Assembly: GCA_002011615.1 (NCBI GenBank)
Contig: MTOH01000012.1
Coordinates: forward strand, 1,255-35,302
Direction: 5' to 3'
From: Candidatus Hydrothermus pacificus
GTDB taxonomy: Bacteria > Hydrothermota > Hydrothermia > Hydrothermales > Hydrothermaceae
Length of the DNA: 34,048 nt
The translations under genes and the position numbers were made by a program. Below are positions 2,859 through 31,882 of the stretch, in pieces. The notes beneath the pieces are model-generated. The model saw nothing but the letters and a program-made list of their open reading frames with translations, had not been told where the DNA came from and ran no database searches. Within the stretch, counting starts at the first letter, position 1; each line of letters begins with the position of its first letter.

Positions 2859-3089
2859 TTAGTCCACTGCTATGCAGGTTACAGTTCTTGATACTCCGTT
2901 TATTGCCTGAATTTTGTTTACTATGAGTGAACCCAGGGATTTTAAATCATCAGCTGATACATAGAGTATAAGGTCATGTAGTCCTGTTACAAGATGTGAT
3001 TCATTCACACCATCTATTTTTTTAACATGTTCCAGTACTTCCATATGTTTACTTGCTTCAACATTTACGAGCACAAATGCTCTTACCAT
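2859..3089 (-). CDS. Stand-alone Lrp/AsnC ligand-binding (RAM) domain protein
   Basis: A 76-residue protein that is only the alpha-beta RAM domain (AsnC_trans_reg) of Lrp-type regulators. It begins with VRAFVLVNVEA, has the central GLHDLILYV with the ligand-loop Gly-x-x-Asp, and ends VTCIAVD. There is no helix-turn-helix, so it probably senses an amino acid or small ligand and acts on partner proteins rather than binding DNA. It ends the 7374-2859 operon, 13 bases after the radical SAM gene, with a strong GGGAGGTG ribosome site. The metabolic genes upstream (an amino-acid dehydrogenase-like enzyme) fit an amino-acid sensor, but that is inference. Stop is TAA. Confidence 0.8.
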   Translation of the reverse strand: MVRAFVLVNVEASKHMEVLEHVKKIDGVNESHLVTGLHDLILYVSADDLKSLGSLIVNKIQAINGVSRTVTCIAVD

Positions 3090-3102
3090 AGCACCTCCCT
3101 TT

Positions 3103-4059
3103 TTAAACTTTTAAAACATCGTATTCATAAGAACCTTTAATTTCTTTTTTATTCCTGATTTTCAAAACATACTGTCCACAGTTACTGCCTATTTTGTTCT
3201 CTTCAACTTCTCCTATACTCACCATAACCTCATAGCCCGAGGATTTTAATTTTTCAACGATTTCATATTTTTTATCAGGATTTTCTGCATCAATGTAAGA
3301 ATCCAAACCGTTTTTGACCGCGCGATATGTGGGATTTAAAGGAGTTATCTTTATAAAGAATTTTTCAGGGTCAAAGTATTTTAATAAAATCTCAGGTTCA
3401 AGGGGAATACCCTTTGCAAGGGCAAAGTTTAAGGTTATTTTCCTATCCCCATTTTTATAAAATTTTTCTCCGTATTCCGCTATTTCTTTAAAACCCCATT
3501 TCGGAGTAGGAATTATCCTTTCTCTTAATTTTTCATCGGTTGTATGAATAGAAAATTGAAGCTGAAAGTTTCCGTTGGAATAATTTTTGTCTTTTATCTC
3601 AATTAATTTCTCAAAAAATTTTTCTCTTGAACAGGGAGCGATGGTTGAAATTGAAGGTATAAAACCGGGTGCATAATATCTTTCAGGAAATTCTTTTAGC
3701 ACTTCTAATACAGCGTCATTAAACGCAGGCTCGCCCATCCTTGCAAACTGAATTTTAAATTTTTTTACAGGCACTCTGCCATCGGGAAAGTGCCTTTTTA
3801 CTATATAGTCTATCTGCATGAATATCTCTTGTTTATTCAACTTCCCCCTGTAATTCCCTCCTGCATCACACATAAGACATTCCACAGGACAGCCGTAAAG
3901 GGTGGAAACCATTAAAACCCATTTTTCTTCTCTTTTTAAAGGGGGCTGTAGTGCTTCAACAAATTCTATTAACCTTCCCTTTTTAATTTCTGCTATGTAA
4001 ACAATTGCTATATCTTCCCTTCCAGCCTTACCTGTTATTTTCATTTTTAATTCTCTCAT
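3103..4059 (-). CDS. RlmN-like radical SAM protein
   Basis: A 318-residue radical SAM enzyme. The cluster motif CxxxCxxC is GCPVECLMCDAGG (cysteines near residues 57, 61 and 64), and FARMGEP supplies the SAM-contacting GEP. The C-terminal SNCGQYV matches the ACGQ segment of the RlmN/Cfr family, whose Cys carries the transferred methyl group. The second RlmN cysteine, seven residues before the first cluster Cys, is Met here (VLMVSTLYGC). This suggests a diverged relative that may not be an rRNA or tRNA methyltransferase. It overlaps the flavoprotein gene upstream by 32 bases; a later ATG at 4044 is an alternative start, but GAGGA before 4059 favours the longer form. Its operon context is metabolic. 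Confidence 0.7.
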   Translation of the reverse strand: MRELKMKITGKAGREDIAIVYIAEIKKGRLIEFVEALQPPLKREEKWVLMVSTLYGCPVECLMCDAGGNYRGKLNKQEIFMQIDYIVKRHFPDGRVPVKKFKIQFARMGEPAFNDAVLEVLKEFPERYYAPGFIPSISTIAPCSREKFFEKLIEIKDKNYSNGNFQLQFSIHTTDEKLRERIIPTPKWGFKEIAEYGEKFYKNGDRKITLNFALAKGIPLEPEILLKYFDPEKFFIKITPLNPTYRAVKNGLDSYIDAENPDKKYEIVEKLKSSGYEVMVSIGEVEENKIGSNCGQYVLKIRNKKEIKGSYEYDVLKV

Positions 4060-4924
4060 AAATCCTCATCGCAGAAATAATTCCATCACCACAGGAAATC
4101 GCTGTTTGCCTGTATATTCCTCTTTTAACATCACCTGCAAGATACAAAAATCCTTCTTTTTCCAGTTTTCTTCTGTTTTTTTCCATGCCCTTAGATAGAA
4201 AATCAAGTTCGGGCTTTCTACCTGTTGCAAACAAAAGAAAATCAGTTTTTAATTTTAATAAATTTCCTTTTCTTTTGCAAATAACGTTTATTTTTCCATC
4301 TTTCCATAACAGTTCTTCTATTAAGGTGTTGTCCAGATATTTTATACTTTTTTCCCTTCTGGCTCTTTCTACAAGAAGAGGGAGGGATTTTATTTTTTCA
4401 GTTCTGTTAAGTATATAAACCCTGTTTTTCTTTGAAAGGTTAAGGGCATAATCAAAAGCAGCATCACCTGCACCCACGATTGCTATTTCCTTAAATGTTA
4501 AATTTTTTAAATTATACACTTCATAGAATATCTTTTTCTCTGGAATCCTCTTTATTCCTTTATATTTAACCTTTTTGGGTTTTGTTCCTGACGCAATAAC
4601 AAGAAATTTTGAAAAATATTCTTTATTCTTTGTTTTTACTGAAAATACACGATTTTTTTTATCAAAATCACATTCCACAACCTCCTGATTTTTAACCTTT
4701 ATTTTCAGAAATTTTAGATGCTTTGTAAATTTCTCCACAAGTTTTTCACCTTCTATTCCTTCTGGAAAACCGGGGTAATTTTCTACACAATTTGCATTGA
4801 GTAGAAGCCCTCCGACTTTGTTTTTTTCAAAGATTAAAAAATTTATTCCGTATCTTTTTAATTGTATTGCACATGAAATTCCTGCAGGGCCTGCACCTGT
4901 TATTATTACATCGTAAATTTTCAT
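4028..4924 (-). CDS. TrxB-like FAD/NAD(P) oxidoreductase lacking CxxC
   Basis: A 298-residue two-dinucleotide-domain flavoprotein of the thioredoxin-reductase fold. GAGPAG (residues 10-15) binds FAD, ASGTKPKK closes the first FAD segment, IVGAGDAAFDYA (about 150-161) binds NAD(P)H, and YLAGDVKRG...QTAISCGDG is the C-terminal FAD motif. The redox CxxC normally just before the second GxG is absent, so it cannot reduce thioredoxin in the usual way. It is more like ferredoxin/flavodoxin-NADP reductase or another TrxB-like electron carrier. Its start overlaps the end of the isochorismatase-like gene (ATGA). A possible role is passing electrons to the radical SAM protein encoded next, but this is inference. 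Confidence 0.75.
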   Translation of the reverse strand: MKIYDVIITGAGPAGISCAIQLKRYGINFLIFEKNKVGGLLLNANCVENYPGFPEGIEGEKLVEKFTKHLKFLKIKVKNQEVVECDFDKKNRVFSVKTKNKEYFSKFLVIASGTKPKKVKYKGIKRIPEKKIFYEVYNLKNLTFKEIAIVGAGDAAFDYALNLSKKNRVYILNRTEKIKSLPLLVERARREKSIKYLDNTLIEELLWKDGKINVICKRKGNLLKLKTDFLLFATGRKPELDFLSKGMEKNRRKLEKEGFLYLAGDVKRGIYRQTAISCGDGIISAMRIYERIKNENNR

Positions 4925-5589
4925 AAATTTTTAATTAAATTTTCACCCAGAACAGGAACAGCAAAACCGTGTGAAAGATTTAAAATTGTTGAAAGATGAA
5001 ATTTGTAGTTATATGTGGCGGTTCCATCAATCACGAAAAATACATCAAATCCTCTCATAAAGGCACTCCTTGCAGTTGTTTCACAGCAGAGATTGGTCAT
5101 AACACCTGTGATTACCACTTGTTTTACCCTTTTTGTCTTTAAAATTTTTTCAAGTTCTGTTTTATAAAAAGCATCGTACCGGGATTTTTTTATTATTATA
5201 CCCTGAGAAGTGTCAATCGCTTTATGGATTTTTGAATATCTGGAATTCCCTTTTATTAGATCTTTCCACCACTTCTTCATATTTCCTACATTTTTTAAGT
5301 TGTTTATATGTCTTGTGAAAATCACGGTGAGGTTTTTCTCATAGTATTTTTTGATTAATTTTTCAATCACAGGGATTATGGCAGGAGCAGATGGTATGAA
5401 GGCGTGAGATTTCCTGTCCAGAAAAAAATTTTGCATGTCAAGGACTAAAAGAGCGGAATTTTCAGAGTTGAATTTTATTTTCTTTATTTTTAAAGTCTTT
5501 TCTACTTCTCTACGAATCTCTACACTTTTTCTTATTAGATTTCTTTCAGTGAAATACTTTTCTTTTAGATTAAATTTTTCTCCAGTAAT
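4921..5589 (-). CDS. Isochorismatase-family hydrolase (start codon unresolved)
   Basis: A cysteine-hydrolase fold protein. The triad is the Asp of ALLVLD, the Lys in IIKKSRYDAF and the Cys of GVMTNLCCETTAR, with the downstream VIDGTAT typical of the family. The first canonical ATG (5436) lies inside the motif LVLDMQNFF and would remove the catalytic Asp, so translation must begin upstream. The frame stays open back to a TGA at 5610-5608 and encodes a family-like N-terminus (LKEKYFTERN, SENSALLVLD) but contains no ATG, GTG or TTG. ATT 5589 or ATA 5607 are the only near-cognate choices near the beginning; I place it at 5589 with low certainty. It overlaps the dehydrogenase gene upstream by up to 20 bases. 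Substrate unknown: nicotinamide, a carbamoyl amide or another amide. Confidence 0.75.
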   Translation of the reverse strand: MTGEKFNLKEKYFTERNLIRKSVEIRREVEKTLKIKKIKFNSENSALLVLDMQNFFLDRKSHAFIPSAPAIIPVIEKLIKKYYEKNLTVIFTRHINNLKNVGNMKKWWKDLIKGNSRYSKIHKAIDTSQGIIIKKSRYDAFYKTELEKILKTKRVKQVVITGVMTNLCCETTARSAFMRGFDVFFVIDGTATYNYKFHLSTILNLSHGFAVPVLGENLIKNL

Positions 5590-6568
5590 GGTTAAAGTAA
5601 ATTTTATTCAATGTCCACAGCCCTGCTGGCATGTTAAATGCCTTTTCTATCCAGTTCACGGCAATTGAGCAGGTTGCCTCATCTCCTGGAATTCCACCCG
5701 GAACCGTGAGCTTTAAACTGGGTTTTCCGTCAATGTATGTTGTATCATGAGGGTTTTCAGCGTCAAGGCTCATCTCAAGGAAAAGGTGAACTGGTATTCC
5801 CTCTTCTGTCTCAATCTTAACCTGATGCTGGATTCCACAGGCATATCCGGGATTTACCTCAAAAAACTCTGTCTTTATAAATTCCTTTGCAATTTTCGGG
5901 TCACAGGTTTCTTCAAGGTTTTTTATTTTTAGTCCCAGTATTTTTGCCAGTATTGAACCTGATTCTGCAAGCCCCACGTGTCCCAGCTCCCTTTTTTCCC
6001 ACTTTTCTTTGAACTCTTCGAGAGTTAATCCGGAACCTATCTTTTTCTGAAGCGGATATCTTCTTTTACTGGCGTTGTTTATCCTTTCAACCTTTATTGA
6101 GTATATTTCCTCAAAGATACCCGAGAATATTGCTGGCAGGAAGTCCATTGCAAAGCCAGGGTTAACACCTGTGGGAATTACAGGCTTACCCTTTTCCCTG
6201 GCCTTTTTATCAATTTTATCTGCGAGTTCAGGATTTTTCAAGTAGGGGTCTGTCATCTCCTCGGTTGTGGTTATTATAGCATGACCTTTATCAAGAATCA
6301 GGAAATACTGGTCTATCACATCCTTTACACGGGAGGAGGTGAGGTGAAGAACGACCGCGTTCTTTTCCCTCTCTAAAACTTTTTCTGCATCCTTTTCCAC
6401 ATATACCTCTTTAAACTCCTGAACTCCTGTTATTTCGGCAACCGATTTGCCCACTTTTTCAGGATGGATATCGATCACGCCTGCAAGTTTTATGCCATCT
6501 CTCTTTGCGAGGTTCCTTACGACGCCCTTACCAATTTCACCCAGTCCAAAAATAAATACAGGTTTCAT
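5570..6568 (-). CDS. DapB-like NAD(P)-dependent dehydrogenase, 2,4-diaminopentanoate dehydrogenase-like
   Basis: A 332-residue Rossmann oxidoreductase starting MKPVFIFGLGEIGKG (GxGxxG at about 8-13). GVNPGFAMDFLPA, NNASKRRYPLQKKIGSG and GHVGLAESGS are the landmark stretches of the Ord/2,4-diaminopentanoate dehydrogenase group, which deaminates diamino acids in ornithine fermentation and is related to dihydrodipicolinate reductase. Length agrees with that group. True DapB is shorter and has a different catalytic HH motif, which I do not see. The gene sits 35 bases after the phosphatase gene and overlaps the isochorismatase-like frame. The amide hydrolase and RAM domain in the same operon suit amino-acid catabolism. 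The exact substrate is inference. Confidence 0.7.
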   Translation of the reverse strand: MKPVFIFGLGEIGKGVVRNLAKRDGIKLAGVIDIHPEKVGKSVAEITGVQEFKEVYVEKDAEKVLEREKNAVVLHLTSSRVKDVIDQYFLILDKGHAIITTTEEMTDPYLKNPELADKIDKKAREKGKPVIPTGVNPGFAMDFLPAIFSGIFEEIYSIKVERINNASKRRYPLQKKIGSGLTLEEFKEKWEKRELGHVGLAESGSILAKILGLKIKNLEETCDPKIAKEFIKTEFFEVNPGYACGIQHQVKIETEEGIPVHLFLEMSLDAENPHDTTYIDGKPSLKLTVPGGIPGDEATCSIAVNWIEKAFNMPAGLWTLNKIYFNHYWRKI

Positions 6569-6603
6569 AGCCTATTAATTTTAAGAAAAATAAGAAATAT
6601 AAA

Positions 6604-7374
6604 TCAAACCCCTGTTATTTTTCTGATTGCCTCAACCCATCCTGAAGGACCTATCCCCTGAGTTTTATAGATATTTTTTAATTTTATATCTGCCCATTTC
6701 CCATCAGGATTTTTAACAAGAACAGGTATATCAACCTCTTTCAACATTGCCTCATCGGTATAGGAGTTTCCAATACCTATGGGTATAATTTTTTCTTTAA
6801 AGTTTTTTTCATAAAGTTTTTTCAAAATCCTCACTGCCTTTCCTTTATCCGCTTTCTTTCCAAAAACATGAAAGAATTTCCCTCCTATGACCACATTGTA
6901 TTTTTCCTTTAACTTTTTAATTGCCTCTTCTTCAACTTCAACAAGGGTTTCACTGAATTCCCTTTTTTTTGCAAATTCTGCAAGTTTCAAATCAAGCCCT
7001 GTGATTTTTGATATTTCAGAAGGTGCTAAATCGTGAAATCCTTTTATCCTGTAAAATTTTTTTAGTTCTTTTAAATCCTTTAAAATTTCCTTTATCTCCA
7101 CACTGAGTATAATAACCTCATATTTCTTTATCTTTTCGCCGACTTTTTCCTTAAAGTAATTTTCTGGTATGTAAATTGCAGAACCGTCTTCCACAATAAA
7201 GGGATGGTTTATATCAAATTTTTTTAAAAAAAATTCCTGTTCCTTTTTTGTTTTTGCGGAGCAGAATATTATCGGAATTTTATCTTTTATGCTTTTAACT
7301 AATTTAAATGCTTCTCCTGCGCTGTAACTTTCGTCTAAAAGAGTGCCATCTAAATCCGTAAATATTATATAAAT
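6604..7374 (-). CDS. mpgP: Mannosyl-3-phosphoglycerate phosphatase-like HAD protein, probable ATT start
   Basis: A HAD phosphatase of about 256 residues. FTDLDGTLLD (residues 5-14) is motif I, ADKGKA holds the motif III Lys, GIGNSYTDEAML is motif IV, and the C-terminal VKNPDGKWAD...GPSGWVEAI is characteristic of the MPGP/YedP group. It would dephosphorylate mannosyl- or glucosyl-3-phosphoglycerate. The first canonical start in frame, GTG 7197, would remove motif I. Upstream the frame is closed by TAA at 7398-7396 and contains no ATG, GTG or TTG. ATT at 7374-7372 lies 8 bases after a GGAG and begins a family-like N-terminus, so I take ATT as start. It is the first gene of the 7374-2859 operon. 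No synthase (MpgS) is in the window. Confidence 0.75.
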   Translation of the reverse strand: MYIIFTDLDGTLLDESYSAGEAFKLVKSIKDKIPIIFCSAKTKKEQEFFLKKFDINHPFIVEDGSAIYIPENYFKEKVGEKIKKYEVIILSVEIKEILKDLKELKKFYRIKGFHDLAPSEISKITGLDLKLAEFAKKREFSETLVEVEEEAIKKLKEKYNVVIGGKFFHVFGKKADKGKAVRILKKLYEKNFKEKIIPIGIGNSYTDEAMLKEVDIPVLVKNPDGKWADIKLKNIYKTQGIGPSGWVEAIRKITGV

Positions 7375-7401
7375 TACAGCTTCTCCTTTTAAATTTTAAA
7401 T

Positions 7402-21769: not shown

Positions 21770-24700
21770 ATGAGAAGTATAATTTTAATAATTGTGTCTT
21801 TTATTGGGCTTTATGCCTAGGGTGGTTATCCATATAAGCCTTATCCAATTCTTTTTGTTCATGGTATCACAGGTTCTTCAAAAGATTGGGGAGTTAAAAT
21901 TTCTGATGATTGCCTTTTCCCAAGATGTGATACCATTAATAAAGACTCAATAATTTCCGGGCATACTTATGATAGGGTTTTACCTTTGATGATACCTTAT
22001 GCAAAGGTATGGTTTTTCATTGATTCATCTTATACTTGGGATGAGGCTCAACCAGCCTACCCCAACAAATCCTTTTTAGAGGTGATAAATTTTGCAGACC
22101 CTATGGGTTCATTAGACCCTGATCCAGACAATTATCCCGAGCCTTTTACAGGACAGGGAGATGAGCTTGTTAAAAGGATAAGGTCTGTTTTAAAGGAGTA
22201 TTACGGTGAGAATTGGCAGGGTAATCCAGATGCAAAGGTTATATTAATGGCGCATTCACAGGGTGGTGCTGTAGTGAGGGAGGCATTAAAAGAAGATACC
22301 ACATTAATTCCACATATTGCAAAGATAATAACTGCTAATACTCCGCATCTCGGTACATGTTTTGCGAATTTGGGTTTCAGGGACTGGATGATACTTTCAA
22401 TGGCGAACTGGCATCCTTATATACATCCTATAAAATGGGGGTTGGGTAATGCTTTTAAATGGCTCGGCAGGAAATTACCTCCTTGGCTTGTAAATCCTGT
22501 AGCGATTGATTTGAGGAATCATTGTATAAAGATAGGCGGCAGGTGGGTGATAAATTTAGAGGGGGATCAGATAGCAATGAAAATAATAGAGAAGATGCCA
22601 TCCGCACTTTTTGAGATTCCCGGTATTGGGGAGTATCTTACTGCTTTTGCGGTTTTGGAGGGTATTTTGGGTCCTGCTGCGGAGGCAATAGCAGAGATAT
22701 GGGGCAAAGAGGGATTTCATGTAAGTATAGGTTCAATACCTGATGATGGGGAGGGTTCGACATTTTTCCGACATTTAGGAACACATGGTGCCGGTAAAAT
22801 ACCATTTGTATGTATTTTGGGCAGGGGTTTTTATGATGACCATGAATATGCTTTTGATGTGCCTGTATTTGGGAAGACTACATGGGGTAAAATTGGTAAA
22901 TTTAACAGGTCAGGTTGGGCTTTGACTGCTGGTTATTGGACTCTTTCTGTATGGTTTCCGAAGCCCTTTTTAGAATGGGCAATTAAGTCAACTGCTTCAG
23001 AGCTTATGTGGGAGTGGTGGAATCAGGATTCGGATATGATAGTAAGGTGGGGTTCCCAGAGTGTGAATCATGTTTCAAGTGAATTTAGAGCGAGGGAGAT
23101 AAAGGAGTGGGGAATATATCACGGGCGTGTGCTTCAAAGATATGACCTTGTTCTAAAAGCCCTTGAAGACCGCCCTTTAATAGATTCTGTTATGCTTATT
23201 CAGACCTTTACAGATTCCCAGGGAGTTCAGAGAACTGATACTGTATATTTAACTGAAAATAAAATAGACACAATCATTACTTCTTTTGAAAATTTAAGAA
23301 TAGAGGGAAAGCTCAAAAAAACTCATTTCCTCCATATAAGTGCCCCAAAAATCTGGATAAATGAAGTGCCCACAGGCAAACTAAAATACCCTGAAAGATG
23401 CGGATATGAAGGCAGAAAATTCTTCATAGATTCAACCCATTTAAAATACCTGGGTGCAGGATATAATAGATTAAAAATAGTTTCAAAAAACGTAGTAGGT
23501 GAAGAATTTACAAGGAATTATACCTTGTGGATGGTGCCGAGTGGCTGGTTCTGCATGCAGGAAAGTCCTGATTATCGTTCTGTTTTAAAGAATTTACTTG
23601 AAAATGATACCTTTAAAATAAGACTTATTAAGCTGGGTCTCTCAGACTCCCTTAAAACAATTGCCTGGGATACATTAAAAGTTAATTTTGTAAATTTAAT
23701 TCAGGATACAAATGGCTGGTTTGTTCCGGATTCAACAGATACCCAATTTGTTTTAATTCCCAATAATTTATACTTTTATGAAGATGTTGAGGGTGTTTAT
23801 AATGATACCAATTATCTTTTATGTCCTGGAAAAAGATTAAATTTACCTTTTATAAATTTAAAAAATTTTTTAATAGATACCTTTAATATTCAAAATTTTG
23901 AAGGCATTTATAATTTTTATTATGTTGTCAATGACTCTTTTAAAACAGTAAAGAGTTTTCATCAATTTTATGTAGATAAAACACCACCTTTTGTGGAGAT
24001 TATAGGTCCTGAAGGGGTTTATTCAATTAATACCTCAAGGGGCGGACCATCGGACAGTATAGCAATAATTGCAAAGATAAAAGATAACTTTGAAACAGAG
24101 CTTTTAACCCCAAAAGATTTAATCTGGATATTAAAAACAGAAAAAGGAGATTCAATATATTCAAAATATTATGATGAACCGGGCTTTTATTATTATGAGG
24201 ATTTATTCATTGATTTTATTCCGAAAGAGGTCTTAAAAAATCTTGAAGACGGAAAATACTATGTTGAGATAAGAACTTGTGACAGGGCTGATAATGAATC
24301 TATTGAGGCAAGATACTTTAAGATTGATACGGGTCCTCCTGAAATTTATGTAATCCAGAAAATGGATTCAATTTTGACCAAAGATAAGGAATATCTTGAG
24401 TTTAAATTCAGGGTAAATGAATGGGCAAGATTTAAACTTGTTTTAAAAAATAAAAATGATACAACGATAAAATACATCAAAGAGGTAAATGCTTTGCCCC
24501 ATGTTTTTTATGATACGTTGATTTCCGAAGCAGAAATAACAGGTAATAAATTTGTAATTTTAAACGAGGAGATTGATGATGGGGTATATTTAATTTATGC
24601 AGAACTTACAGATTCAGCCGGTAATACAAGGGAATTAACCGGAAAGGAAATTTGCGGAAATAGCACTTTGAGAGTTGATAAAACACCGATTTCTTTAAAA

Positions 24701-27700
24701 GATATTTTTATTCAGCCTTTTGTAGGTGAGGATTTTATAAATCTTTCATTAAAGGCGGAGCAGATAAATGATAAACCGGAAAATAAAAAAGGCGGGGTAT
24801 TAAAGATTTTCATTGACAGTTTATTTATAAAGGATTTTGAATTTCCTTCTGATTCGGATACCATAAAAATTTATCATCAGTTTGATATTAAAAATTTATC
24901 CTATGGAAAACATATTCTTGAAATAGAAGCAGAAGACCCGTTCGGAAGCAAAACCCGTAAGAGTAAAGTATTTTTCAGAAATACTTATGGAACAGAAATT
25001 ACATTTCCTTTAAAGGATACTCTTAAAAGGGGGATGATTGTAATTGAGGGAAGGGTGTCTGACCCTGATATTTACGATAATTTACCCTTTAAGAATTTTG
25101 AAATATACTGGACCGATGTAAAAAATCCTGAAATTACACCTGACAGCATTGATAAAAATGTATGGCATTCTGAATTTCTCGAAGTGAGAGAAGATTTGCG
25201 AAAAGAAAATGAGCCTTTAAATTTCGGATTTAAAGAGGTAAATAGTGAAAATATAATTGCTTTTTTAAATTCAGGGGGTATATCACCCGGCAGGATAACC
25301 CTTCTTTTAATTTCAAGGGACCAGATGAACTCGGTTTGGGACACAGCTTCCTTTTATCTGGAAAAGGAATTTGCTCAAAATCCCGATATTGAGCTCTATC
25401 TGAAAGTGGAAAGACCCAAACAGGATACACCGGGTATGATTGAAGGGGTGCCAGGGGCAGGTGATACACTGCTACTTGATTTAACTAAGGGCGAAAAACT
25501 TGCTGGAACTTATTTTTTAAAGGGTGTTCCATCACAGGTTAAATTTCAAATTCTTTCACAGGATAATGAAATTTTATTTGAGGAAACTGACTAGGAAATT
25601 TATCCTGTGGATGGTATTCCCCAGAAATTTGATTCAACAGGATTTTATGTTTATTCTGAAGATGAAAAAAATCTTTATGTTGTTTTTAAAAGTGAAGATT
25701 CTGTTATTGCAGGTCTGGGTATAATTGCGGAAAAAATATTTGAGGTTGATTCAATTTATGTGGATTCTGGTTTTAATTCCTTTTTATATGAAAACAACCT
25801 GAATATTTTTGCCCTTGGTAAATTTGAGAATTTAAACAAATTAAGGGTTAATTTAAAGCCAGAAGTTGCGCTTAAAAAAGGATTTTTAAAGGTCTTTCTT
25901 GGGAAAAATCTTTATTCACCTGATAAAGATTCTTTTAATATAATTGGTAAGACACACCTATGGGACGGAAAAGTTTATCCTTCAGGCAATTTTGTTGTTC
26001 CTGGAAATTATAGAGTTAAAATTATTGCCTATGGGAAAAATGGGAACGGATATGTTGAGAAAGAAAAAATTATAAAAGTAAAGTCAAAGTTTGAAATTGA
26101 TACAGTGTATGTCCAGCCTCAGGAAATCACTGTTAATGATACTGCTTTATCAAAGGTCTCTTTATTTTTCAAGGCGAATATGGATTTAAAGGCAGATATT
26201 TTTGTAATAAATTCTGAGGGAAATGGGGTTGATACCCTATGTATTGATAAAGGATTTTACGGCTCCTGGAATACCCACTCAATTATATGGGATGCAGGTA
26301 AAAAACCTTTCATAGATAGCGGACTTTACAGGTTTAAACTCCTTTTAAGACCTTTGCATACAAATTTTGATACGGTTTTATATTCTCCGAATTTTAGAAT
26401 AATAAATGTTCCTGTGATTTACGATACTCTTGATTTGTATATACCTGATGAGTATGCTCAGGATACTCTCTCAGATAAAAAAATTTACGATGCAAAACCA
26501 GAATATCTATTTTCATTAAAGGCAAAGGGAAGATTAACACCGCCTTTACCTTTTAAAATTAATGTTGAAAGAAAATCAGCAAAAATGCCTTTAAAGGTTA
26601 AGTGGAGAGTGGATTATTATACGGTTGATGTTGATACGCAGATTAATATGGTTAGACGCTTTTATCCTGATAATCCTATAAAGATTATTGGTCCGGGCGA
26701 AACTTGGAATACCCCATCGGACAGAAAATTGATTAAGGTTGTAAGAATATTTGGAGATACGAGTCTTATAGAATATAATTTTGATGGCAAGGATTACTAT
26801 TTCGGTAATTCAAGAGAATGGAAAGGTGCAGGATGCTGTTATAATTGGCAGCCCAATCCAATAAGATGGGGAATTTTTGAGAATTATCTTTTTACAGATA
26901 CAATAAATTGTGGTGGTTATAAATGTAGAAAATTGGTTGAAGCAATAGAGCCTGCATGGGATTATCTTAAAATCTATGATTCCACAAAGATTGTTCCTGA
27001 TACCGAGCTTGTTATAACCGACTCCCTTCTCGGAATCTCAGATTCAGGAACCTTTTATATAGTTGATACCGGTGCTGTTTATAAAGCCTATACGAGTTTT
27101 TATCCTGCTCAAAGGGATTCCTAGGCATATAAGATAAATTTTATTCCCTTTTATCCGGTGTTTATAAAGAGTTATAAAATTTTCACATACATGAATCCAT
27201 ATACCGGAGATACCGTGGTTAGACATCTTGATAATTACTATCCGCTTTCACAAAAAATTGAAACAATTGATTCTATTTCACCTGATAGCGTAATAAAAGT
27301 GAGTTTACTTATAAAGGGACATACCCCGAGTAATTATATTATTGATACACTTATCAAATTTTATAAGATAAAAGTTGATACAGATATTTATATTCATAGA
27401 GATTTTAATGGTAATAAAATTTTTATTCAAGAAATTCCTGTTTATGCAAATGATACTCCGCAGGTTTTTGATAAACCAGTTGTAAAATGGAAACTAAAGG
27501 CAAAAGTTTTTTATGAAAATAATTTGCTTGAAGAGTTTGAAGATACTTTTCATATATCTGAAGATTTAAACAGGGAGGATGGGATTGTTGAAATAAAGTC
27601 AACTTCTGCCAACTTTTTCAGGGAATTGAGGTTTATCTTACCGGAAAGCAATATAGAATATTTCAATGAAAATGCTTTGATTAAAGATACATTAAAATGG

Positions 27701-30700
27701 AATGAAAATCAGAAAAAATATTTCCAAAAAATAAGGTCCCTTGATTTTCTTGAAAACTGGCAGGGAAGCAATCATTTTGTGAGTTATGCCTGTTCCCTTA
27801 TAACAGGGAAAGTTGCATTTAACGATACAGGTCCTTTACCGGATTCAGGAAGATGTATAGTAATAAAGCCTTCCCTGAATATAGAAGATACTTTATGGAC
27901 AAGTAAGGAGGATAAGTTTATTGATACAACCGGAATTTTGTATACAGAGTTTCCTGCAATTTTTGGAAATACATTCCCCGATTCAGGATATTTATCAAAG
28001 ACCTACATCTCTGAAAAGTATTTTGAAAATTATAAAGATTCTATACTTTCTCATCCTGAATACGGAGATTCTTTAAACCAGATGTTCAATTATGAAGTTC
28101 AAAATGATACCCTCTTTAAAAAATCAAACCCCTGTTTGAATATAACCGCTTATGATTCTTTGAGGATCTTTTATATAAACAAAAGATTGCACCATGATTT
28201 GTCAGGTGAAAAAACAGAATTTCATTATTCAGGCTATGGTCAGGGAATAAACGACTTTTTAAGACCTTATCTGAAACTTACCTATCATCCAAGAGAGTAT
28301 ATTCCTTTAAGGGGCAAATCCTTTACAGGAAGTTATAAGATTTATATAATGCGTGAAGATAAAATTTATCCTCAATATGACAGCCTTTTGAGTGCACCAG
28401 AAGGAGTTGATACAATTCTGGGATTTATAGAAGTTTCTGAGATGGGAGAAAACATAAAGGTTTTACTTTATGAATATCAGGGGGGCAGTTTAAGTCAGAT
28501 AAGATATAGAGATTTTCTTATAGGAGATTTGTTTGACCCTGATAAAAATAAGTTGATTGCAAAAAGTCCCTACGCAAGAGCGGTAATCAATTTTTCTCCA
28601 AATTCTTTTAACTCTCCTCAGATTACAGGTATATGTCCTCTTTATCCTGATTCAATGAAAATTGAAGGACCGCAGCCCTATATAGGCGGTAATTTTGGAC
28701 CGCTTCTTTATTTAAAACTAGGAGGTGCAAAGTTTTCTGAGCCAGAACAAAAGCCCACCCTCTATTATTACTTTACTCAAAGGGAAAAACAGGAATACAA
28801 CATTGATATTGAGAATATAAAAATTTATGCAGTAAAAGAAGATGGTTCTTTAATTCCTTTAAATACAATAGTTTCAGAAGACCCAGGTACGGGTGAAATA
28901 ACTTTGCAGGTTATGGCTGATTCTTTTCCTGGTGAAGGTGATACTCCTTATTTTGCAGCACTTTGTGAAAATGAAACAATGGATGGGAAGATTTTGATAA
29001 TTAAGGAAAGAATTTATAATGGTAATATATCCCTTGAAGGCGTATATATACCTTATACCCAGCAGAGAAGCCTGGATGTTTTGTTTGTAGGAACCAGGGA
29101 AAAATTAGAAAACATATATGATTTAAAGAAGTACATCCTTTCAGAAGTTCCTGATACTGTTTTAAGGGCATCTACATTAAGAGAGGATAACGAGTTTTAT
29201 TTTAACTTTGAGACCGATTTTGATACTCTTTATTATTTTATTCTACCCGGTGTCAATGAAAACTTCTTAAATCAATTTAAAGGAGAGATTAAGAATTTTC
29301 CCGTTGCAAAGGGGGTTCTGGTTGATACTGCATTTGAGATAAAAATTTTGCCTCCTGAAAACCCTTATACAGGAATTGTCCATAATGATTTAAAGTTTTA
29401 TGTCAACAAAGATGCCCTTGTCCATTATTACCTGAAAACTCTTTCAGGAGAGATTATAAAAGATACATTTTTCAATGCGCAGGCTTTTGATACAGTGTCA
29501 ATTTTATGGTATGGTAGAATAGGGAATCAGAAGGCAGAGGAAGGTGATTACCCCTATGAGATTGAAGGTTTTGCCCCAAGTGGTGAGACAGATTACAAGG
29601 AGGGGGTATGGCATGTAATATGGAACTACTACGCGGTTATATTAAATCCTGAAGATGGCTCATTTTTCATACCAGGGAATGATATTGTTTTAAATGCAAA
29701 AATTCTGGGCACGAATTTGCCTCTGGAATGGAGTGCATACTCTAAGTCTGGGTGGGAGTTCATAGGGATTCAGAGCGATACCCTTTCACCGGTTGTATGG
29801 CATATTCCACAGAATTATAAAATACCTCTTACATTGAAGGCTTCACCTTTAGTCCCAGGTGTTCCTGATTTTGCAAGGATTTATCCTGTAAGGGACAGTT
29901 TTCCGCCTTTAATAAGTATAATTCCCCTTTCAAATTTTTATCAGGGGAATATTTTATGGATTTCAGAAGGAGGACAGGTTCTTATAAATACAGAGGATAA
30001 TGAATCCAAAATAGAGACTTCCTATGTGCTTGTAAACAGTTTGCAAAAAATAGACTTTAAGGATTCTCTAATTTTAACATCGCAGGATTTAAATCCTGGT
30101 GAAAACAATGTTTATGTATATACAAAGGATGTAATGAACAATGAAAAAGACACAAGTTTTATTCTGGGCGTAGATAATTTTAAACCGAATGTTCAGGTAA
30201 AATTTGGTGAACCTTATTATGCGCAGGGAGATACCTTTTTTGTGACTCCCTCAACCCCTGAAACCCTGTTTGCACGGGATAACGGCTCGGGTATTAATTC
30301 AATATTTTATAAAATAAATAATGCAGGTTATAGCCAGATAAATGATTCAATTTATGTTATCAATATACAGAATCAGGGCCTGAACAGACTTTATCTTTAT
30401 TCTGTTGATAATTTGGGAAATAATTCTGAAACCCTTATGGTTTTTGTAAGGGTTGAAGTTCCTGGAACCGCCACTGTTAAGTTGACATTTCCCTATGATT
30501 CAATAATATTCAACCAGAGTTTTGCAATAAGGGGATGTGCCTATAATATACAGAAATGGAGAGTTTTATACGGATATGGTTCAAATCCTGCAAATTATAT
30601 TTTGCTGAAAGAGGGAAATAACCAGATTTATGATTCATTAACCCCGATTGATACATTTCCGCCCTCTGTAATTCCGGATGGTGTTTATACAATAAGACTG

Positions 30701-31882
30701 GAAGGGATAAGTTATCAGGATACCTTTTATGACGAAAGGGTTATTTATAAGGGAAATTTTGAAATTTACGATTCTGTCCAGACCCCCTCTTTTGGTAAAA
30801 TTTCAGGAGATGATAAATTTCTTTATTATGCATATGTTGATACAAGTAATCAGGTAATAATCTATCTGAGAAAATATCAGATAATGGACAGTTTAATTTT
30901 TATAAAAGAAGATACACTTCGGGATACAATTCCCTTTTATCATAATTTAACAGATATGTGCGTATTTCCTGATTATAAAATTTTTATCCTTTTTGATGCG
31001 GTACCTCATAAAGTCTCACAAAGACAGATGGATATGGGATATATATGGAAGGGCAAGGAAGGGATGTATACTCTTTTTTATTTTAATAGTTTCTTTGGAG
31101 AAAGTGATTATGAGAAAAATAGAATATATACAGTTGAAAGACTACCTTTTGGGAATATTCGCTTTTTCATAAGGGATACCACCAGTTTAGATTCTTTACT
31201 CTCTTTTGGAAATTTTGAAAACCCAGTCTCAGGTTTTGCAGTCAGGGATTCTGTTTGCTATTATTCTCCTGATTTTGGCAATAAAATTTATTTTTTAAAA
31301 ACAGGAGAAAATATTCCCTTTGATAGTATAAATCATTATGCTGAAAGGCTTTTTATAGACAATAAGGGTCTTTTATGGGGAACCGCAGGGAGCGAGGTTT
31401 TCTGCTTCTCACCTTTTAAAGAGAAAATATTTTCCCAGAATATGGAGTGGGTTAATAGTTCTTTTTATGTTGTTAAAAATTATCTATTCATTTTATCGGG
31501 AAATAAGATCTGTTTTTACGGTTATAATATTCAGGATAAGATGTATTTAATGACTTCTCTTTCCGTAAATAAATCTTTAAAAATCCAGAAACTCTTTGCC
31601 TACCCTTCCCTTTATAATCCTGAGAAAGGATTTTTAAAAATAAACTTTTATCTACCAGCAGAAAATAGCGGAGAAGTCTTGATTTACACCCTTTCAGAAA
31701 AACTGGTTAAGAGAATAAAATTTTATGGAAAAAGGGGATTAAACACTATTTTATGGGACGGAAGAAATGAGATGGGTTTACCTGTAAGAAACGGGGTTTA
31801 TGTTGCCCTTGTAAAGGTTAAAAACGGATTTTTTAAGGATGAAAAGTATACAAAGTTTATTTTAAGGAGATGGAAACCTTAA
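21770..31882 (+). CDS. Giant secreted alpha/beta-hydrolase and Ig-repeat protein with three in-frame TAG codons
   Basis: One frame of 3,370 codons from ATG 21770 (GAAGG 7 bases before it) to TAA 31882, broken only by TAG at codons 17, 1275 and 1785. Codons 1-16 are a signal peptide (MRSIILIIVSFIGLYA). A lipase-like alpha/beta hydrolase follows: FVHGITGS near 30, nucleophile elbow MAHSQGG near 160 and NTPHLGT near 190. The middle is made of Ig-like and FlgD-like beta domains (for example KTPPFVEIIGPEG and HLWDGKVYPSGNFV). A ZU5-like piece lies near 2300-2420, an NHL-like propeller near 3000-3265 and a FlgD-like Ig domain at about 3290-3370 (LNTILWDGRNEMGLPVRNGVYV), which often serves surface sorting. 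Without read-through or correction only a 16-residue peptide is made. The intact frame between ambers argues against a decayed gene. PorV-like and propeller genes follow directly. Confidence 0.85.
21818..21820 (+). other. In-frame TAG 1, at the signal-peptide end of the giant gene
   Basis: Codon 17, context GCC TAG GGT. It follows GLYA, a good signal-peptidase site. Reading CAG gives YAQGGYPYKP, a natural mature N-terminus. The frame continues with FVHGITGS, which is essential to the hydrolase, so the TAG is within the gene and not its end. Confidence 0.85.
25592..25594 (+). other. In-frame TAG 2, in the giant gene
   Basis: Codon 1275, context GAC TAG GAA. The next ATG in the same frame is 25607, with no SD, and sense codons EIYPVDGIPQ lie directly after the TAG. 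Reading CAG gives EETDQEIYPVDG. Confidence 0.8.
27122..27124 (+). other. In-frame TAG 3, in the giant gene
   Basis: Codon 1785, context TCC TAG GCA (CCTAGG). The same frame continues as AYKINFIPFYPVF without a gap, SD or good start. Reading CAG gives RDSQAYKINF. Confidence 0.8.

Follow-up and report, generated by a model that had tools for sequence, protein, structure and literature searches.

The three-gene cassette

We analysed a 34,048-nucleotide stretch of contig MTOH01000012.1 (positions 1,255 to 35,302) of Candidatus Hydrothermus pacificus, phylum Hydrothermota, hereafter the window, in which six adjacent open reading frames (ORFs) occupy positions 2859-7374 of the minus strand. A preliminary description had listed these six ORFs, all of which are present, as one unusual metabolic operon. 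The three genes in the middle are the subject of this report. RSAM (3103..4059, minus strand) encodes a short, RlmN-type radical S-adenosylmethionine (SAM) protein of 318 aa with a CxxxCxxC motif (residues 57/61/64), GEP at 109-111, E32, M50, and C294 within GSNCGQ. TRX (4028..4924, minus strand) encodes a TrxB-like FAD/NAD(P)H flavoprotein, recognized by profile match, that has IFYE in place of the redox CxxC, and ISO (4921..5583, or to about 5577, minus strand, true start uncertain) encodes an isochorismatase-fold cysteine hydrolase with the triad D49-K133-C166. RSAM and TRX overlap by 32 bp, TRX and ISO by 4 bp. None of the three proteins reaches the cut-offs of NCBIfam models: TRX scored 161 bits against TRX_reduct (cut-off 343) and RSAM 46 bits against RlmN (cut-off 290), while ISO matched Isochorismatase with 129 bits.

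A scan of the genome collection with RSAM yielded at least 496 relatives, and the 80 best of them served as "named loci". In these 80 loci RSAM is accompanied by TRX in 75 and by ISO in 62, but by RAM, the gene downstream of RSAM in the window, in 2 and by the window's dehydrogenase and phosphatase genes in none. Within the window's phylum, where a match at E at most 1e-60 defined a carrier, RSAM was detected in 29 of the 147 genomes scanned, the window's own genome counted. Across 29 loci from other genomes of this phylum, RSAM is usually preceded by ISO and TRX, and homologues of the phosphatase, the dehydrogenase and RAM were not found. Thermoplasmatota carry RSAM in 36 of 214 genomes, mostly as ISO-TRX-RSAM. 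When all 142 loci were considered, TRX lay directly upstream in 134 and ISO upstream in 112, many of the misses being contig ends. In 116 loci the sequence reaches 2.5 kb or more upstream of RSAM; TRX is the gene immediately before RSAM in 113 of them, and in 102 ISO is there as well, without exception in the order ISO-TRX-RSAM (102/102). The six-gene operon label is thus valid for this genome only, because it is only the three central genes that recur as a unit: where the preliminary description had proposed to look for scattered neighbourhoods in relatives, ISO, TRX and RSAM stay together, whereas RAM, the dehydrogenase and the phosphatase do not. We therefore redraw the finding as a conserved three-gene cassette.

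The three proteins also diverge together. Over 104 loci, the pairwise correlations between the distance matrices of RSAM, TRX and ISO were 0.84 (TRX/RSAM), 0.79 and 0.83, with permutation maxima of at most 0.21; these values were set against permutations and not against a species tree, and shared species history can yield them too. In the RSAM tree, phyla and domains are intermixed in places: a Syntrophaceae sequence (L064) groups with one from Chloroflexota (L065), and a row from the window's phylum (L034) with an archaeal row (L094). The cassette is fixed in order and strand, co-diverging, and spread across bacteria and archaea, many phyla and many anaerobes; we read it, tentatively, as a portable, self-contained enzyme module. 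Full-text literature searches, judged mostly from result listings, returned no description of it.

One Thermoplasmatota genome carries TRX and RSAM fused as a single 622-aa ORF (L224:390-2258, minus strand). A gene of 200 aa without a Pfam match lies upstream of this fusion and overlaps it by 4 bp. Several other RSAM matches from Thermoplasmatota contain an in-frame TAG, TGA or TAA (L188, L189, L197, L208, L209 and two further matches); read-through, for example by pyrrolysine, may explain some of these codons, and matches running past the stop may explain others.

Local neighbours and genomic contexts

The remaining three genes of the window's locus look like local neighbours. RAM (2859..3089, minus strand) encodes a stand-alone Lrp/AsnC ligand-binding domain (AsnC_trans_reg, 55 bits) and is separated from RSAM by 13 bp. 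On the other side, the ISO start falls at or within the end of a gene for a dehydrogenase with a DAP_DH_C domain (5570..6568, minus strand), followed after a gap of 35 bp by a HAD-IIB phosphatase gene of the MPGP family (6604..7377, minus strand; probable ATT start at 7374). The earlier gene labels are correct at the level of the family, while most equivalog cut-offs were missed. The phosphatase ORF (203 bits) lies above the subfamily cut-off of 165 and below the equivalog cut-off of 244. The dehydrogenase exceeds the Pfam gathering threshold for DAP_DH_C, but with 228.8 bits it fails the NCBIfam equivalog cut-off of 400 for 2,4-diaminopentanoate dehydrogenase. Promoter-like sites occurred at chance frequency, and an Rfam search returned zero matches.

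Two of the six ORFs have no standard start codon ahead of the first catalytic motif (4921-5607 for ISO, 6604-7395 for the phosphatase). In the phosphatase gene, no ATG, GTG or TTG occurs 5' of the catalytic motif; in ISO none occurs 5' of the catalytic Asp, and CTA stands at the position of the homologues' ATG, the homologue start corresponding to ~5571. Either odd start codons or an assembly error would account for this. Elsewhere in the window, three very long plus-strand ORFs (21986-31882; 1202, 505 and 1574 aa) have the appearance of a single set of giant extracellular proteins that has been broken or split.

Neighbour clustering revealed no constant fourth partner of the cassette, and recurrent neighbours are lineage-bound. 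In Anaerolineae, the cassette shares an operon with RACo, a pterin-binding protein, MTHFR, DUF3786 and CooC-like ATPases (one locus scanned, the others by grouping), and in the Syntrophaceae locus L064 a CooC-like gene lies beside RSAM. A role in the Wood-Ljungdahl pathway was considered and rejected, since the CdhC family occurs in 1 of the 147 genomes of the window's phylum and that genome is outside the 29 carriers; we regard this as lineage context only. Stand-alone RAM genes are found upstream of ISO in two Anaerolineae loci (L119:4073-4297 and L140:5891-6118), whereas the window's RAM lies downstream of RSAM. In Dehalococcoidia (L067, L068, L069), a dihydropteroate synthase gene adjoins the cassette upstream of ISO (L067 scanned, the others by grouping). 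A small DUF7508 protein is encoded directly upstream of ISO in three loci of one family (L031, L033, L036) and near ISO in a fourth (L047:11626-11934). Some cassette neighbours in Thermoplasmatota are translation genes (AspRS-like, Dus, KsgA-like, aTrm56), and at two archaeal loci (L233:9324-10688, L235:2625-3914) the gene for an AspRS-like class II tRNA synthetase overlaps the ISO start. A scan for anti-phage defence with the PADLOC models gave no convincing match for ISO, TRX or RSAM.

Features of the three proteins

RSAM was aligned in 143 different rows together with a canonical RlmN (L030). The cluster cysteines and C294 are present in 142 of the 143 rows, the remaining row being a gap, and E32, the counterpart of RlmN E105, in 140. 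At the position of RlmN C118, cysteine was found in none of the 143 RSAM rows (I, L, M, V, one N, one gap; M50 in the window protein), whereas the canonical L030 has it. K102, R107, Q166 and Q168 are conserved in 142/143 rows, and these four belong to a set of invariant or nearly invariant positions, with D65, P142, N211, K237, T239 and T244, at which L030 differs. We infer that such family-specific residues may line a pocket that takes up a small anion as substrate.

The AlphaFold2 (AF2) model of RSAM (pLDDT 91.9) superimposes on RlmN 5hr7 (VIA) with Z 26.9 and a root-mean-square deviation of 3.0 over 271 residues, spanning RlmN residues 75-361. Because the alignment begins only at residue 75, RSAM lacks the N-terminal RNA-binding domain of RlmN. 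Sequence comparison, too, placed RSAM with RlmN and Cfr. Foldseek ranked RlmN and Cfr highest, directly followed by spore photoproduct lyase, whose cysteine is a hydrogen-atom donor. With RlmN (PDB 3rfa, 5hr7) and Cfr (9p0p), RSAM shares the barrel with its accessory strands, GEP and three hallmarks of class A radical SAM methylases, namely the CxxxCxxC cluster motif, the general-base Glu and the methyl-carrier Cys (C355 in RlmN) in the CGQ loop. Two further class A features, the resolving Cys (C118 in RlmN, C105 in Cfr) and the N-terminal helical RNA-binding domain, are absent, and RSAM differs additionally in its invariant K102/R107/Q166/Q168/N211/K237 and in having its own flavoprotein and hydrolase partners. 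The RNA positions methylated by the class are A2503 and A37. According to passages of a 2022 review (PMC9692996), E105 of RlmN is regarded as the base that activates C355, the methyl carrier, C118 is indispensable for adduct resolution, and the reductant of the cysteinyl radical is described there as unidentified.

TRX spans both nucleotide domains of TrxB and resembles thioredoxin reductase and the TrxB-like ferredoxin-NADP reductases over its full length, with FAD and NAD(P)H domains. In contrast to thioredoxin reductase, none of 131 TRX homologues has the redox-active CxxC of the NADPH domain. In ISO, the triad is retained across 110 rows (K133 in 110; C166 in 109, with one X; D49 in 105, with five gaps). 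Its AF2 model (pLDDT 95.2) finds its best structural matches in PhzD, 3irv and maleamate amidase (Z 25-29), no row standing out. Fold and D-K-C triad are shared with isochorismatase-fold cysteine hydrolases (3irv, maleamate amidase, RutB, biuret hydrolase). The fold is also common to PhzD and EntB, and ISO has an N-terminal helical extension as in PhzD, but it carries a nucleophilic Cys. A nearly invariant W105-W106 pair sets ISO apart from the compared cysteine hydrolases and from PhzD/EntB alike.

Proposed function and competing explanations

The reading that we favour, tentatively and at somewhat less than even odds, is that TRX feeds RSAM, which would use C294 to carry a one-carbon radical to a small substrate, and that ISO performs a hydrolysis. 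TRX would pass electrons from NAD(P)H to the [4Fe-4S] cluster of RSAM and perhaps also reduce the cysteinyl radical left on C294. A first SAM would methylate C294 and a second would generate a C294-S-CH2 radical, whose carbon would be added at an unsaturated centre of the substrate, a small anion gripped by the basic and amide residues K102, R107, Q166, Q168, N211 and K237. As there is no resolving cysteine, release of the adduct would fall to a different residue or to the substrate. ISO would hydrolyse an amide or carbamoyl group, on either the precursor or the product. The electron-donor role of TRX is the best-supported part of this scheme; a flavoprotein feeding the radical SAM enzyme had been suggested before, and it is supported, though not proved, by the position of TRX directly 5' of RSAM, its co-divergence with RSAM and the one fusion.

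Several observations weigh against the scheme. Three loci (L032, L043, L064) carry RSAM with neither TRX nor ISO nearby, and eleven further loci, the fusion locus L224 among them, have TRX but no ISO upstream; because partners are missing there, TRX or ISO may act separately from RSAM. The proposed C294 chemistry is modelled on RlmN by homology. RSAM has no counterpart of the other class A cysteine, which RlmN and Cfr cannot do without. Moreover, the pocket-lining role of the basic residues is deduced from strand positions.

The absence of the resolving cysteine from every RSAM row suits a different role for C294, as a hydrogen-atom donor and not a methyl carrier. RSAM would then be of epimerase or lyase type, with TRX re-reducing the cysteinyl radical at each turnover, a stoichiometric one-electron need that fits a dedicated flavoprotein. 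The position of spore photoproduct lyase next after RlmN and Cfr in the Foldseek ranking points the same way. However, E32 and the CGQ loop are retained, which suggests that cysteine methylation is retained as well, and we regard a hydrogen-donor role as a minority possibility.

Slightly less probable is an involvement in the salvage or modification of biotin vitamers, in which ISO would release biotin from biocytin or a similar amide while TRX and RSAM would repair or convert another vitamer, whether imported by BioY or produced in the cell; we consider this combination unlikely. Biotin genes are nevertheless the most repeated theme among the cassette's neighbours. At six Fermentibacterota loci, genes for a biotin protein ligase-like protein, bioB, bioF, an alpha/beta-hydrolase-like protein, a bioC-like gene, bioD and bioA precede the cassette (bioA and bioD assigned by NCBIfam over cut-off in the scanned members, bioB matched separately, the remaining genes judged from their position, size and similarity). 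BioY is encoded directly upstream of the cassette in L131 and, at a greater distance upstream but in the same orientation, in L106, and a BioF-like gene lies directly downstream in L093. In the window's phylum, BioY occurs in 22 of 29 carriers versus 29 of 118 non-carriers (p = 5e-7), an enrichment matched by none of 20000 family-stratified permutations. The raw ECF_trnsprt control was enriched too (p = 0.0025), but not once BioY's own matches had been removed (7/29 vs 19/118, p = 0.41). In Thermoplasmatota the association is weaker, with BioY in 18 of 36 carriers and 46 of 178 others (p = 0.005). Furthermore, just 19 of the 50 named carriers have BioY and 8 have BioB, BioY is absent from four of the five divergent f12 carriers, and most cassettes do not adjoin biotin genes. 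We know of no chemistry that requires an RlmN-type enzyme on biotin, which also counts against this reading. Given the weaker association in Thermoplasmatota, the low BioY and BioB counts and the other contexts elsewhere, we treat biotin as a lead and not as a result. A replacement of BioB by the cassette, suggested by the adjacent bioA and bioD and by BioB over cut-off in none of the 147 genomes of the window's phylum, was rejected: BioB is encoded in the same operon in the six Fermentibacterota carriers, and BioD likewise exceeds its cut-off in none of the 147 genomes.

That the module modifies RNA, with RSAM acting on tRNA or rRNA like RlmN, is improbable. The fold of RSAM is that of RlmN/Cfr, some Thermoplasmatota loci have translation-gene neighbours, and RlmN also methylates tRNA A37, as stated in the same review (PMC9692996). 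However, RSAM lacks the N-terminal domain of RlmN (to residue 74), family-specific basic residues replace those of the RlmN pocket, and its partner ISO is a small-molecule hydrolase. A canonical RlmN is seemingly also present in several carriers, e.g., G067-G069, where weak longer matches were taken as RlmN. Finally, the original idea of a six-gene amino-acid pathway whose product is sensed by the RAM protein can draw on the six genes here sharing one strand and overlapping or nearly abutting, and on the RAM genes near two Anaerolineae cassettes, but it is largely refuted by the neighbourhoods in the named loci and in the window's phylum and is very improbable; as an adaptation of one genome it is possible.

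Returning to the favoured C294-borne chemistry, its boldest form would be a new radical SAM class with an RlmN-type carrier cysteine, a release free of the second cysteine, a small metabolite as substrate and its own flavoprotein, serving an undescribed vitamin step, possibly biotin vitamer salvage, in many uncultured bacteria and archaea. We hold this to be doubtful. Independently of it, a fixed three-gene unit that spans many phyla and reaches no NCBIfam cut-off provides an entry point to anaerobic metabolism. The almost always adjacent TRX offers a direct handle on which protein reduces the cysteinyl radical, and if C294 is methylated, RSAM would reveal how an RlmN-type adduct is resolved in an enzyme that lacks the cysteine considered essential to RlmN and Cfr.

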